Assembly (NCBI RefSeq): GCF_002885955.2
Contig: NZ_POQS01000010.1
Location: forward strand, 92,776-156,775
Length of the DNA: 64,000 nucleotides
Direction: 5' to 3'
Source of the DNA: Achromobacter pulmonis
GTDB lineage: Bacteria > Pseudomonadota > Gammaproteobacteria > Burkholderiales > Burkholderiaceae_B
The notes under the pieces are model-generated. The model was given only the letters and a program-made list of their open reading frames with translations. It had not been told where the DNA came from and ran no database searches. The position numbers were made by a program, and so were the translations under genes. Positions 1 through 23,450 of this stretch are shown one piece after another; position 1 is the first letter of the stretch, and each line of letters starts with the position of its first letter.

Positions 1-1763
1 AGGCGTTCCTGGTCGCGCGCGGCCAGCGCGGCCTGCAGGTCGGCGTGCGATTGCTCCAGCGTGCGCAGCAGCGAGGAGGAATGCTGCTCGAACGTGGCGG
101 CGGCCGCTTCCAGGGCCTGGCGGTTGTCGCCGGCCAGGCGTGCGCTGGCGGCTTCCTGGCGCGACAGCGCATCGGTCCATTGCTGCGACACGCCGTTGGC
201 GGCGGCTTCCATGCGCGCGGCCACGCCTTCGAGCAGACCCGCCTGGGTGGCGGCCTGCGCGGTGACGTCGCGCACGGTCTGCGCCAGCGTCTCGGCGATG
301 GCCTGCTGGCGCTCGGCGGCCTGGGCGCCGGCCTGCTGCCATTCCTGGCGCAGCGTCGCGCCCATGGCGCCCAGCGTCTCGGTCCAGGCCGCCAGGCGCT
401 GCTGGTCGCGCGAGGCCAGTTCGGATTGCAGCGCGCTATGCGACTGGTTCAGGGTGCGCAGCAGCGAGGCCGAGTGCTGCTCGAAGCTGGCGGCGGCCGC
501 GGTCAGCGCCTGCAGGTTGTCGCCGGCCAGTTTTTCGCTGGCCTGTTCCTGGCGCGCCAGCGCCTGGCTCCAGGCCTGCGACATATCGCCGGAAGAGGCC
601 TCCAGGCGCGCGGAGACCTGATCCAGCAGCGCGGCCGAGCGTTGTTCGAAGGTCTGGGCGTAGCGGTCCAGCGATGCGCGCAGGTCCTGGGCCAGGGCTT
701 CGCTGGCGCGCTGCTGTCCGGCCAGGGCCTGGTTCCAGATCTCGGCCACGTTGGCGGTCGAGGCCTGCAGGCCGGCGGTCAGGCCGTCGAGCTGGCGCTG
801 CACGGCCTGGGTCACGGTGTCCTGCAGGTTGGCGGTTTCGCGCGACAGGCTGGCCATGGTGGCCGCGACCACCGGCTGCAGGGCTTCGCCGGCCGAACGG
901 GCGCTGTGCGCCACGCCGTCCTTCATCGATTGCTCCATGACCGACGCCAGGCGGGCGTAGGCCGCCTCGGCCTTGCCCTGGAAGGCGTCCTGGCTGGCCA
1001 GCTGGCGGTCGTTGAGCGCCTGGTGCTGGCGCGTCATGCCGTCCATCATGGCCTGCAGCTTGTCGACCAGCGCGGGCATGGCCTCGGCCTGGCGCTGCAT
1101 GACTTCGGCCTGGCGTTGCAGCAGCTTGAAGGACTCTTCGCGCTGATAACCTTGCGAATACACGCGCAGGGCGGTGGCGGCCTTGGCGTCGAGCAGCTGC
1201 GCGGCGCGGATGCGGTCGCGCCGGCACAGGGCGGCCAGCAGCCCCAGCATCGCCGAGGTGGCCACGCCGGCGATCGAGGTGCCGAACGCGAATCCCAGGC
1301 CCTTGACCGGCGCGGCCAGCGAGGCGCGGATGGCGGCGAGGTCCGTGGCGCTCTCCAGCGCCAGGCCGGTGCCGCGCAGCGTCACCACCATGCCCAGGAA
1401 GGTCCCCAGCATGCCCAGCAGCACCAGCAGCCCCACCAGGTACGGCGTCAGCGCCGGCCCGGGCAGGCCGGCGCGCTCGCCCTCGATGCGCAGGCGCGCG
1501 GCGTTGCGCAGGCTGGCGGGCAGCTGGTCCAGCCAGCTGGCCAGGTTGCCCGGCGCCTCGGCCAGCCCGGAGAGGGCGCGGCTCAGGGCCGAGGTGGCCC
1601 GCTGGTAGCGCCACAGTTCGTACGCGCCGGCGAGATAGCAGACGCCGATGAGCAGGGTCACGGCCAGCGCCAGCGGGTTGGTGCCCGCATAGCCCAGGCC
1701 GATCCAGCCCGCAACGGCCAGGCCGGCCAGGAAAACAACGAGATTGATCAGGTATCGGGACAT
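1..1763 (-). CDS. DUF802 domain protein, MotA/TolQ-like channel with long helical tail (3' end outside window)
   Basis: At least 587 codons are visible and the gene continues past the left edge. Two hydrophobic segments lie near the N-terminus (about residues 7-24 and 31-47). A third near residues 107-125 carries the glycine-rich LLGMLGTFLGMV motif, followed by a segment ending GVATSAMLGLL, the pattern of MotA/TolQ/ExbB proton-channel proteins. The rest is long Ala/Gln/Glu-rich predicted coiled coil with internal repeats of about 130 residues. The start ATG lies 10 bases after the DUF3348 stop, with an AGGA site in the gap, so the two are co-transcribed. In related genomes this pair is usually followed by an OmpA/MotB-like gene, which would lie off the edge. 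Function unknown; an ion-driven envelope motor or force-transducing complex is inferred. Confidence 0.8.
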   Translation of the reverse strand, partial: MSRYLINLVVFLAGLAVAGWIGLGYAGTNPLALAVTLLIGVCYLAGAYELWRYQRATSALSRALSGLAEAPGNLASWLDQLPASLRNAARLRIEGERAGLPGPALTPYLVGLLVLLGMLGTFLGMVVTLRGTGLALESATDLAAIRASLAAPVKGLGFAFGTSIAGVATSAMLGLLAALCRRDRIRAAQLLDAKAATALRVYSQGYQREESFKLLQRQAEVMQRQAEAMPALVDKLQAMMDGMTRQHQALNDRQLASQDAFQGKAEAAYARLASVMEQSMKDGVAHSARSAGEALQPVVAATMASLSRETANLQDTVTQAVQRQLDGLTAGLQASTANVAEIWNQALAGQQRASEALAQDLRASLDRYAQTFEQRSAALLDQVSARLEASSGDMSQAWSQALARQEQASEKLAGDNLQALTAAAASFEQHSASLLRTLNQSHSALQSELASRDQQRLAAWTETLGAMGATLRQEWQQAGAQAAERQQAIAETLAQTVRDVTAQAATQAGLLEGVAARMEAAANGVSQQWTDALSRQEAASARLAGDNRQALEAAAATFEQHSSSLLRTLEQSHADLQAALAARDQER

Positions 1764-1773
1764 AGTGTCCTGG

Positions 1774-2541
1774 TTAGTGTGTACGGATCTGGCCGGTGCG
1801 CAGGGCGGCAAGCAGCCCCTCGACCGGTTGTAAACGGACATCCAGTTCGGCGAGCAGGACGCTGCGCATGTCCTTGCGGAACGTCTCCAGCCAGGCGCCG
1901 GCCGCGGCCGCAGGCGCCTCGGCGCCGTCGTCGCCGGCTTCGGCCAGGGCCTGCGCCTCGGCCTGGCGCAGGCGTTCGAAATGGCCTTGCAGCAGTTTCG
2001 GGATGGCGCCCAGCAGGGCGCGCTCCTTGGGCAGCAGGGCGCGGTCCATGATGGCGTCGACCACCGCCAGGCGCGTCCATTCGCCATTCCTGGCCGCGAC
2101 CATGCCGCGCAGCCGGCTGCGCAGGTTGCCCACGGCGGTTTCCATCGTGTGCTGCAACGACAGATAGCGCTGGCGGAAATTCGCGTAATCGGCCTCGGCT
2201 TCGGCCAGGGCCGCCAGCTTCTTTGCCGGCGCCTGTCCCGGCGCGGGACGCCTGGCGGCCGTGGCCGCGGTATCGCTGGCGATGGCGTCGGCCAGGGTGG
2301 CGCGCACGCGCTCGCATTCGCGCTCCTCGGCGCTGCTGAACATGCGCGCGCCCGGCGCGATCACGGGCGGGCTGGTGTTGAGCGCCGCCGAAAGGGCGAT
2401 CGCGTCCGTCCAGCCGAGCCACTGGCTCAGATGGTCAGAGAGCGATTGCCTGGATTGCGCGACATCGACATCCGTCAGGCGAGTCAGCAAGCGAATGAGC
2501 GTCGGGCCGCTTAAACCGGTGCGCTGGGGGGCCTGCAACAT
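1774..2541 (-). CDS. DUF3348 family protein
   Basis: 255 residues, matching the DUF3348 family of Burkholderiales in length and pattern. The protein is soluble and mostly helical, without signal peptide or membrane segment. A short Ala/Gly/Asp-rich linker lies in the last third (around residues 200-215). It is the first gene of an operon with the downstream DUF802 gene. Family function is not established. Constant pairing with DUF802 and an OmpA-like gene suggests a cytoplasmic accessory to that membrane complex (inference). Confidence 0.8.
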   Translation of the reverse strand: MLQAPQRTGLSGPTLIRLLTRLTDVDVAQSRQSLSDHLSQWLGWTDAIALSAALNTSPPVIAPGARMFSSAEERECERVRATLADAIASDTAATAARRPAPGQAPAKKLAALAEAEADYANFRQRYLSLQHTMETAVGNLRSRLRGMVAARNGEWTRLAVVDAIMDRALLPKERALLGAIPKLLQGHFERLRQAEAQALAEAGDDGAEAPAAAAGAWLETFRKDMRSVLLAELDVRLQPVEGLLAALRTGQIRTH

Positions 2542-3599: not shown

Positions 3600-4385
3600 T
3601 CAGAATGCGTAGATGACGCCGACGTGGGCGAACGCGTTGGTCTCGCGGTCGGTCAGCGGGCTGTCGCGGGCGTCGCCGGCCAGGGTGCTGACGCCCAGCG
3701 TGGTCACCGCGGCCCAGCGGTCGTTGAAGCTGTGCGTCCAGGTGCCGAAGACCGACACGGACTTGAAGCCGGACGAGGCCGAGTAGGGTTCCAGCCCGGC
3801 GCGGCTGCGCGCGGCCTGCGACGGCGTGACGCCAAACCACGTCTGCATGTAGTCGCTGTCGGCCCATTGCGTGTTGGCGCCGATCGAGACGCGGTTGCGC
3901 GAGTCGCGCCATGCCGTGTAGGTGGCCCGCAGGTCCAGCGTGGCGCCATAGCCGCTTTTCGCGGCCTGCCGGTAGGCCGCGATCACCGAGAAGTCCCCGG
4001 GCGACCATTCGATGAAGGCGCCGTAGGTGCCGTGGAAGTCGATGTCTTCCAGTCCCTTGGTGAGGTCGGCGTCATCGGCCTTGCGTCCCAGCCCCATGCC
4101 GACGAAGGCGCCGGTGGTCCAGTCCGGCGCCAGGTCGAACTTCAGGCCCATGGCGGGCAGGCCCGCGCGCGGCGAAATGAAGAAGTGTCCGGACTGGTAT
4201 TGGATCAGCGGCACGGGCAGGGCGCGGTATTCGCTGGAGCCTTCGTACACCGGTATGGCGCCCACGCCCATGCCGATGAAGTTGCGGCGCTGTCCCTCGT
4301 TCTCGGCGCGTGCGTTGCCCGTCAGCGCCGCCAGCAGCGCGGCCGAGGCCGCCAGCGTCCTGCTTGATAAAATCAGTGGCTTCAT
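3600..4385 (-). CDS. MipA/OmpV family outer-membrane protein
   Basis: 261 residues. A signal peptide ends about residue 27 (ALTGNARA). The rest shows alternating amphipathic beta strands and ends in a C-terminal phenylalanine (VIYAF), typical of a BAM-inserted beta barrel. MipA was described as a scaffold for murein hydrolases and OmpV as a porin-like barrel; which applies here is unknown. It is divergent from a QseB/QseC-like two-component system across a 134-base AT-rich spacer, so control by that system is likely (inference). Confidence 0.85.
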   Translation of the reverse strand: MKPLILSSRTLAASAALLAALTGNARAENEGQRRNFIGMGVGAIPVYEGSSEYRALPVPLIQYQSGHFFISPRAGLPAMGLKFDLAPDWTTGAFVGMGLGRKADDADLTKGLEDIDFHGTYGAFIEWSPGDFSVIAAYRQAAKSGYGATLDLRATYTAWRDSRNRVSIGANTQWADSDYMQTWFGVTPSQAARSRAGLEPYSASSGFKSVSVFGTWTHSFNDRWAAVTTLGVSTLAGDARDSPLTDRETNAFAHVGVIYAF

Positions 4386-4519
4386 TCCATTGCTTCCTTT
4401 GTTCCCAGGCGGGCCGGCTGCCTCGCCCTACGCGAACCGCATTGTCGGCATGGGGTTTTAATAATTTTTTAAATGGGCGCCGGCATGCTTCGCCCTCGTT
4501 CGTTTGCCTTGGAGTTCTC

Positions 4520-5182
4520 TTGCGTGTCCTGTTAGTCGAAGACGACGCCATGCTGGGCGACGCCTTGCATACCGGCCTGGGTCAGTCGGGGGTGGACGCG
4601 CACTGGGTGCGCGACGTCGCGCAGGCCAGGCTAGCCTTGGTCGAACATGCTTTTCAGGCCGTGCTGCTGGACCTGGGGCTGCCCGACGGCAGCGGCCTGG
4701 CGGTCCTGAAGCAACTGCGCGCGCGCTACGACGCGACTCCGGTGCTCATCCTGACCGCGCGCGACCGGCTCAGCGAACGCGTCCAGGGCCTGGACCTGGG
4801 CGCCGACGACTACATCGTCAAGCCGTTCCAGCTCGATGAGCTGCTGGCCCGGCTGCGCGCCGTGGTCCGGCGCAGCAGCAACACGGTGGTGTCGGCGCTG
4901 CGCTGCCGCGACGTGGTGCTGGAACCCGCAAGGCGAGTGGTGACGCGCGCCGGCGTGGAGATCGGACTGAGCGCACATGAATACCGCACGCTGCTGGCGC
5001 TGATGGAGCGCATCGGCCATACCGTCAACCGCGAGCAGCTGGAGGCCGCCGTCTATGGCGACAGCGGCGCGATCGAAAGCAACACGGTGGCCGTGTACAT
5101 CCACCAGCTGCGCCGCAAGCTGGGCGACGGGCTGATCACGACGGTGCACGGCCTGGGCTATCGCATCGAAGAGGCGTCATGA
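4520..5182 (+). CDS. OmpR-family response regulator (QseB/PmrA-like)
   Basis: 220 residues from a TTG start with GGAG six bases upstream; this start gives the standard N-terminus MRVLLVEDDA. The receiver domain has acidic D8/D9, phosphoacceptor D51, T79 and K101. The C-terminal OmpR-type winged helix (about residues 125-218) ends in the wing motif TTVHGLGYRIE. The stop overlaps the kinase start by four bases (ATGA), implying translational coupling. The divergent MipA-type gene is the obvious candidate target. Confidence 0.93.
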   Translation: MRVLLVEDDAMLGDALHTGLGQSGVDAHWVRDVAQARLALVEHAFQAVLLDLGLPDGSGLAVLKQLRARYDATPVLILTARDRLSERVQGLDLGADDYIVKPFQLDELLARLRAVVRRSSNTVVSALRCRDVVLEPARRVVTRAGVEIGLSAHEYRTLLALMERIGHTVNREQLEAAVYGDSGAIESNTVAVYIHQLRRKLGDGLITTVHGLGYRIEEAS

Positions 5183-22508: not shown

Positions 22509-23450
22509 TCAGGAACGCGGCGCGGCGGGACCCTGCGCCGCCTTCTGCGGCGCGGTGATGTCCATGATCAGTTCCACGCGCCGGTTGGCGGCGCGGCCCG
22601 CGGCGGTGTCGTTGGATTCGAGCGGGCGGGTTTCGGCGTAGCCGACCGCGCGCAGGCGCTGCGGCGCGACGCCGTCGCGCACCAGTTCGCGCAGCACGCT
22701 GGTGGCGCGGCTGCTGGACAGTTCCCAGTTCGAGGCGAACTGCCGGGTCTGGATGGGCACCGGGTCGCTATGGCCTTCGACGGACACCTGGTAATCGTTT
22801 TTGTTGAGGATGCCGGCCAGGCGCTTGATGACGTCCAGCCCGGCCGGGCTGAGGGTGGCCTGGCCGGACGGGAACAGCAGTTCGTTGCTGATGCGGAAGC
22901 TGACCGATTGTTCGTTGATGATGACGTCGACCGAGTTGCCCAGGTCGGCCAGGCCCAGCGATTCCTTGGACGGCGCGCGCAGCGGCGGCGCGGCTTCGGC
23001 CACGATCTCGCCTTCCTGCTCGGGCGCGGCGTCGGCCACGGCGGCCGCGGGCGGCGCGGCCGGGGCCGGCGGCTCGGCCCAGCTGGCCGGGATGGCCACG
23101 GCGTCGAATTCGGAATATTCGCCTTCATAGGCCGGCAGGCCGCTGGCGGCCAGCGAGCCGACCAGCTGCACCGGCTGCTCGTTGCCGAAGAAAGCCAGGC
23201 CCTGCAGGCGGGTCAGCGCCAGCAGCACGACCAGCAGCGCCAGCAGCAGCGTGATCAGATCCAGGTAGCTGAGCAGCCAGTGTTCGGATTCCGGTTCTAC
23301 GTTGTCCTCGACGTGCCAGCGGGCGTAGCGGTCCTGGCGGCCGCTTCTGCCCTGGCGCCAGGCGCCGCCGGCGGCCGCCTTGCGGGCGCGCAGCTCGGCC
23401 TGGCGGGCCTGCTCGATCCGCTCGGCCAGGGTGGGCGAGATCAGGCTCAT
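22509..23450 (-). CDS. MotB/MotD-like OmpA-domain stator protein
   Basis: 313 residues. After a basic cytoplasmic segment, the single transmembrane helix (about residues 57-80) contains D63 in the SYLDLITLLL context, corresponding to the proton-accepting aspartate of MotB. A Pro/Ala-rich linker (about 120-160) leads to an OmpA-like peptidoglycan-binding domain (about 185-300, ending NRRVELIMD). It overlaps the upstream MotA-like gene by four bases. No other flagellar genes are nearby. Confidence 0.88.
   Translation of the reverse strand: MSLISPTLAERIEQARQAELRARKAAAGGAWRQGRSGRQDRYARWHVEDNVEPESEHWLLSYLDLITLLLALLVVLLALTRLQGLAFFGNEQPVQLVGSLAASGLPAYEGEYSEFDAVAIPASWAEPPAPAAPPAAAVADAAPEQEGEIVAEAAPPLRAPSKESLGLADLGNSVDVIINEQSVSFRISNELLFPSGQATLSPAGLDVIKRLAGILNKNDYQVSVEGHSDPVPIQTRQFASNWELSSSRATSVLRELVRDGVAPQRLRAVGYAETRPLESNDTAAGRAANRRVELIMDITAPQKAAQGPAAPRS

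Follow-up and report, generated by a model that had tools for sequence, protein, structure and literature searches.

A probable chromosomal Zorya type III defence motor in Achromobacter pulmonis and the repeated helical tail of its ZorA protein

The zorA3 gene at the left edge of the window (the window being the whole stretch of 64,000 nucleotides analysed here, contig C2, bases 92776-156775, from the 6.94 Mb draft genome of Achromobacter pulmonis in 96 contigs) probably belongs to a complete chromosomal Zorya type III locus, which would encode an ion-driven motor for defence. The identity of the locus as Zorya III is close to certain, and as such it is a member of an already known kind of system; defence in the native host is likely. 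The features on which this reading rests are given below, where L009 denotes the region of the same genome to the left of the window, with L009 12776 being the base before window position 1.

Window 1..1763, minus strand: first 587 codons of zorA3 (DUF802 protein), comprising the motor domain (residues 1 to ~230) and then the start of the repeated helical tail; PADLOC ZorA3 E=0, Pfam DUF802 E 1e-54, open frame and motifs
Window 1236..1421, minus strand: MotA/TolQ/ExbB-like helices of zorA3, with invariant Thr121 and Thr162-Ser163
Window 1..1073, minus strand: start of the tandemly repeated helical tail of zorA3 (131-residue unit), site of the DUF802 matches
Window 1774..2541, minus strand: DUF3348 gene, type III-specific accessory; PADLOC ZorG3 E 2e-143, Pfam PF11828 E 5e-90
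L009, left of the window, minus strand: remainder of zorA3, interrupted by three one-N scaffold joins
L009 9742-10392, minus strand: zorB3, OmpA/MotB-like; PADLOC ZorB3 E 3e-118, Pfam OmpA E 2e-19
L009 9108-9752, minus strand: DUF2894 gene; PADLOC ZorF3 E 2e-80, Pfam E 1e-54
Window 22509-23450, minus strand: flagellar-type motB (MotB_plug and OmpA domains), ~25 kb from zorB

The operon runs on one strand in the order DUF3348, zorA3, zorB3 and DUF2894, with the DUF3348 gene lying 10 bases upstream of zorA. Beyond the DUF2894 gene there is a short gene, which we take to be ParD-like, and then a gene for an M24 peptidase. All four operon proteins match the PADLOC type III models at the E-values listed above. 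An earlier reading, made from the sequence alone, had described the layout of the DUF802 protein as ZorA-like; the architecture was correctly recognised, and the wording was too weak, since all four genes match Zorya type III models. The same reading had located a DUF3348 gene beside the DUF802 gene and had proposed that an OmpA/MotB-like partner would lie to the left of position 1, and both genes are found in the places given (the latter being zorB3).

According to PMC8565338, Zorya III was named in 2021 and is defined by DUF3348 (ZorF) and DUF2894 (ZorG), 6,401 instances were counted, and E. coli was protected from phage when it carried the type III system of Stenotrophomonas nitritireducens. 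The type III operon as described in that source combines a ZorA with a MotA-like domain, ZorB, DUF3348 and DUF2894, as is the case here, and no feature of the present locus excludes membership under that description. Two statements of the sequence-only reading do not survive this comparison: the function of the motor is not unstudied, and the remark that no Zorya effector gene was in view overlooked that DUF3348 is itself specific to type III, with the DUF2894 gene next door. The names of the two accessory proteins are swapped between PADLOC-DB 2.0 (PDLC00652-00658) and the 2021 paper, so that DUF3348 is ZorF in the paper and ZorG3 in the database. No structure and no identified effector of Zorya III are described in the sources cited here.

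The visible part of ZorA3 is read from a minus-strand frame of 587 residues without a stop (window 1763 to 1), as had been reported. The channel motif LLGMLGTFLGMV occupies residues 115-126 (window 1421-1386) and the second motif, GVATSAMLGLL, residues 166-176 (window 1268-1236), and the helix described as rich in Ala, Gln and Glu is borne out by residues 231-587, which are 43% Ala+Gln+Glu and contain one proline. In Zorya, the ion path has been assigned to an Asp and a ring of Ser/Thr (PMC11890865). ZorB Asp21 and ZorA Thr121, Thr162 and Ser163 were invariant in 75/75 sequences, and these residues, intact in the relatives, are of the kind expected of such a path, the correspondence being drawn here. 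In an Achromobacter relative (L041), the motor part of ZorA can be aligned with chain 8vvn_C, a ZorA of Zorya I, at E 1.6e-5, and ZorB of the same relative finds its best matches in MotB and other OmpA-like domains, with 8vvn_B at E 1e-4.

To place the operon among its relatives, the best 80 loci from a search of named genomes were compared, of which 26 are from Achromobacter and the rest mostly from other Burkholderiales; the closest named relatives are Achromobacter, with 89-94% ZorB identity among the best ten. The four genes are present in the same order and on the same strand in 77/80 loci, and the remaining three (L055, L068 and L091) are cut by contig ends. Over the loci, the median overlap of ZorA and ZorB is 4 bases and that of ZorB and DUF2894 is 8 bases, and the median gap between DUF3348 and ZorA is 10 bases. 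The operon is under purifying selection: median dN/dS among 25 of the 26 Achromobacter loci (L055 dropped; Nei-Gojobori method) lies between 0.11 and 0.39 across the four proteins or parts of them, values of which only the ranking is meaningful because codon bias was not corrected for.

The partner genes decide against the view that the protein is no Zorya component but an unrelated channel of the ExbB/TolQ type whose coiled coil arose by chance. That view could draw on the motor part being only weakly similar in sequence to the solved ZorA (E 1.6e-5) and on the Pfam name DUF802, which carries no Zorya meaning, but the ZorA3 model matches at E=0, the OmpA-domain ZorB carries the invariant Asp, and the three partner genes accompany the gene in every locus not cut by a contig end. 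We regard it as refuted and its truth as next to inconceivable.

With Zorya I/II (PMC11890865; PDB 8VVN, 8VVI) the locus has in common the ZorA/ZorB core, the ion-path Asp and Ser/Thr, the C-terminal ZorA extension and the OmpA-like ZorB domain, whose peptidoglycan binding has been shown for types I/II in the same source. Unlike those types, the operon is without ZorC/ZorD or ZorE, and no nuclease is recognised in it. EH_Signature, representing ZorC of Zorya I, has no match at E 0.001 in the genome of this strain. No PADLOC match to ZorD was obtained among the 10 flanking proteins scanned (two nearby ORFs, L009 5896-6615 and window 4310-5182, lie outside that set). As for ZorE of Zorya II, type III families give the best match for each of the four operon proteins, and the same 10 proteins have no PADLOC match at E 1e-5. 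The flagellar stator MotA/MotB likewise has MotA-like helices with Ser/Thr and an OmpA-domain partner with a membrane Asp, but the present locus differs from it in the long repeated tail and the two accessory helical proteins, and a separate flagellar-type motB lies elsewhere in the window.

The left end of the zorA fragment in the window is a scaffold join and not a real gene end, since the base before window position 1 is a lone N, flanked on its two sides by identical stretches of 308 bases. Four such one-N joins with exact duplicated ends are present, at L009 8186 (89 bases), 11861 (399 bases), 12327 (144 bases) and 12776 (308 bases); one lies in the M24 peptidase gene and three in zorA, and the three other than that at window 1 all fall within 4.6 kb of it. 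These joins are assembly artefacts at overlapping contig ends. Recent gene amplification was considered for the 308-, 399-, 144- and 89-base duplications and rejected, because at each of them a single N separates a suffix and a prefix that are perfectly identical, because one is in the M24 gene, which has no other reported repeat, and because the genuine neighbouring repeats of this genome are merely 74-77% identical. The zorA reading frame is shifted by two of the three joins inside the gene. Since these two joins break the frame in the assembly, we infer the intactness of zorA in this strain from its relatives: the gene is uninterrupted in 25/26 Achromobacter loci, and in the remaining one (L055) it stops at a contig edge.

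The tail of ZorA3 is not a random run of Ala, Gln and Glu. The part visible in the window matches itself at a shift of 131 residues (z 8.3), and the DUF802 matches lie outside the motor domain, in the tail, with four stretches in the fragment from this genome and between 2 and 7 in six relatives, one of which is without a long repeat. Tail length was analysed in 75 of 79 zorA reads, after dropping L055 (contig end), L076 and L107 (broken) and L079 (start not found). The 75 uninterrupted proteins range from 643 to 1229 residues, and tandem repeats with z >7 were detected in 59/75 tails (one shuffle of each tail gave z <=4.3). The repeat unit is 131 residues in 25 proteins, 87 in another 25, 113 and 51 in two proteins each, and 33, 102, 69, 76 and 124 (which also shows as 62) in one protein each. 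The 16 proteins without such repeats have 643-818 residues, eight of them 697 or 698, and 23 proteins are 784/785, 871/872, 959 or 1045/1046 residues long, which corresponds to ~697 plus one to four units of 87. For comparison, six ZorA1 proteins (from ten regions) have 642-778 residues. The longest of these (L164, 778 residues) also shows a tail repeat, of 138 residues or 37.9 turns, and the other five have 642-702 residues.

Of 23 sister pairs on the tree, 10 were equal in length, six differed by whole units (872/785, 1046/959, 871/784, 1207/1076, 855/702 and 871/697), one differed by 29 residues (1229/1200) and six, mostly the more distant ones, differed by other amounts; at least 36 length changes are needed on the tree of the 75 proteins (Fitch parsimony on one FastTree tree). 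The units share a common property: counted in helical turns of 3.64 residues, each deviates from an integer by no more than 0.12 (P-value = 5e-5 when the period was fitted in the null too; 2.5e-4 to 7e-4 when the unit of 102 was omitted; 1.2e-4 when the period was set to 3.65). Averaged over these tails, the hydrophobicity spectrum has its peak at 3.65, with single tails at 3.58-3.68, and the tail is nearly proline-free. Units of whole turns are what a continuous helical bundle would impose, which supports the sequence-only reading of the tail as a coiled coil, here with repeats locked in register.

Since zorA itself contains three of the four joins with exact duplicated ends, one has to ask whether the repeat arrays and length differences are themselves assembly artefacts, the more so as zorA reads are broken at two other loci (L076 and L107). 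This is very unlikely, since 75 uninterrupted zorA reads come from other genomes and 59 of them carry diverged repeat copies, several near-identical sisters differ by exactly one unit, and, leaving aside the join duplicate, the copies in this genome share 74 to 77% identity. Taking the repeats as real, we tentatively suggest that ZorA3 might be a length-tunable, register-locked shaft, with a tail of ~60 to 150 nm if the helix is continuous, in which modules of whole turns may be gained or lost without breaking the bundle and length might be selected (for reach towards DNA, or for matching to phages), and that this shaft might serve a fixed core motor of the host genera rather than a mobile defence cassette. 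A modular ZorA tail length was not found in the open-licence PMC literature, which is a weak negative. Near-identical systems that differ by single register-preserving modules (872/785, 1046/959 and 871/784) provide a ready-made length series for studying the function of the shaft.

The two accessory proteins were modelled from alignments of the window DUF3348 with 52 of 77 others and of 49 of 80 DUF2894 sequences. The AlphaFold2 models are all-helical for both, with pLDDT 79 and pTM 0.76 for DUF3348 and a poor model (pLDDT 72, pTM 0.41) for DUF2894, and neither had a Foldseek match to a known fold at E 0.001 or better. The best VIA-align match of DUF3348 was the MxA stalk (Z 7.6, rmsd 4.0, 150 aligned), from which nothing was drawn, since the score is inside the range that VIA-align warns of for helical bundles. 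DUF2894 has a basic C-terminal tail in 78/78 proteins (78 of 80 loci, L055 and L063 being dropped because of contig ends), with a net charge over the last 20 residues of median +6 and minimum +4 (e.g. L041 10641-11303), while the corresponding medians of the other three proteins are -1 to +1. If any part of the operon proteins touches DNA or membrane, this tail is the best candidate. DUF2894 is also the fastest-evolving part of the operon (median dN/dS 0.39 versus 0.11 for ZorB and 0.06 for the M24 gene, the latter in the 19 loci that have it; as above, a ranking), and its C-terminal half holds a nearly invariant core. Its fast evolution might mark the phage-facing or adapting part.

Putting the parts together, five ZorA and two ZorB would assemble in the inner membrane as a rotary motor driven by ions, with the OmpA-like domain of ZorB gripping peptidoglycan and the five ZorA tails bundled into a long stiff cytoplasmic shaft. 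The entry of a phage may disturb the envelope, upon which ion flow would turn the shaft, and the DUF3348 and DUF2894 proteins, encoded with the motor, would act at or through it, the basic tail of DUF2894 possibly contacting DNA or membrane. We infer the assembly of the motor, its trigger, the roles of the accessory proteins (here from predicted folds that gave no confident match) and defence in the native host. For types I/II, the ZorA extension and the peptidoglycan domain of ZorB are required for defence, as reported in PMC11890865.

Surveys with one genome per species revealed that the system is nearly fixed within certain genera. In 42/43 genomes of the genus there is a single full-score ZorB3 (382-398 bits), the exceptional genome being 57% complete (the search tool's own tally of 43/43 includes ordinary OmpA-domain matches), and DUF2894 is also present in 42/43. 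DUF3348 is found in 6/6 genomes of another genus of the family and in 90/97 of a genus of another family, the seven negatives including one genome that is 84% complete; at higher ranks it is found in 86/250 genomes of the family (own genus included), 17/300 of the order over the cut-off and 8/369 of the class. ZorC of Zorya I occurs in 2/43 and 6/97 genomes of the same two genera and in 9/369 of the class. DUF3348 and ZorC are thus equally rare across the class, and the contrast between them is confined to the positive genera. DUF3348 was detected in 26/72,556 plasmid records, where the 15 among the matches listed are all >0.58 Mb, and in 0/50,697 phage records. A soil Variovorax from phage-resistance evolution experiments carries Zorya type III by PADLOC, as stated in PMC11953036.

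The position on the chromosome is also conserved. Where zorB and an OmpA-domain gene of similar score share a contig (34 genomes of the genus), the two are 22.6-43.5 kb apart in 31/34 and >730 kb apart in the other three; one OmpA-domain gene per genome was picked by hand among the matches listed, 7/41 genomes with the genes on different contigs and one (G027) with no such match were set aside, and the neighbour was identified as motB from the present window alone. The M24 gene is downstream of the operon in 19/26 Achromobacter loci, and two (L055 and L063) end too early. In Achromobacter insuavis, deleyi, ASV32, ruhlandii and dolens (L060, L061, L062, L064 and L065) the operon has no M24 gene downstream in the DNA examined, which may reflect local rearrangement or relocation. 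Neither near-fixation within genera nor a fixed chromosomal position was found described in the open-licence PMC literature, again a weak negative.

Near-fixation within genera, together with a flank without defence genes (10 proteins scanned), is unusual for a defence system, and this is where a housekeeping role has to be weighed. The sequence-only reading had thought such a role at least as likely as defence. In this alternative, the motor would have a housekeeping task in the genus, in the envelope or related to motility, and defence would be secondary and seen upon over-expression in E. coli. The near-fixation of ZorB3, DUF2894 and DUF3348 against the scarcity of ZorC in the same genera, the fixed distance to the OmpA-domain gene (flagellar-type motB in this window), the absence of defence models among the 10 flanking proteins (0/10) and the absence of DUF3348 from phage records all speak for it, and the support from near-fixation is real, if indirect. 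On the other hand, the system is absent from most genomes sampled from the order and from the class (in the class it is about as rare as ZorC), it is missing in 7/97 genomes of an otherwise positive genus, and protection of E. coli by a type III system is on record (PMC8565338). Trees built from 29 genomes (30 minus L068, which is without zorA) add to this patchiness above the genus: in the tree of the ZorA motor domain and ZorB, Achromobacter is joined to Cupriavidus basilensis with support 100, and the systems of Bordetella to other ones of Cupriavidus with support 96, whereas in the rpoB tree Achromobacter groups with Bordetella (support 98). The conflict indicates that the operon moved between genera and rules out strict vertical inheritance across families. 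On balance, we consider a primarily housekeeping motor possible and rather unlikely.

The preferred reading remains a Zorya type III defence motor. Near-fixation and transfer have to be accounted for jointly: the operon is not a mobile defence cassette of the classic type, nor is it a universal housekeeping gene of ancient origin. Given near-fixation within genera, one may ask if type III serves these bacteria as a core innate defence or does a second, housekeeping job; this near-fixation and the register-locked length series of ZorA are the parts of these results most worth the attention of specialists.
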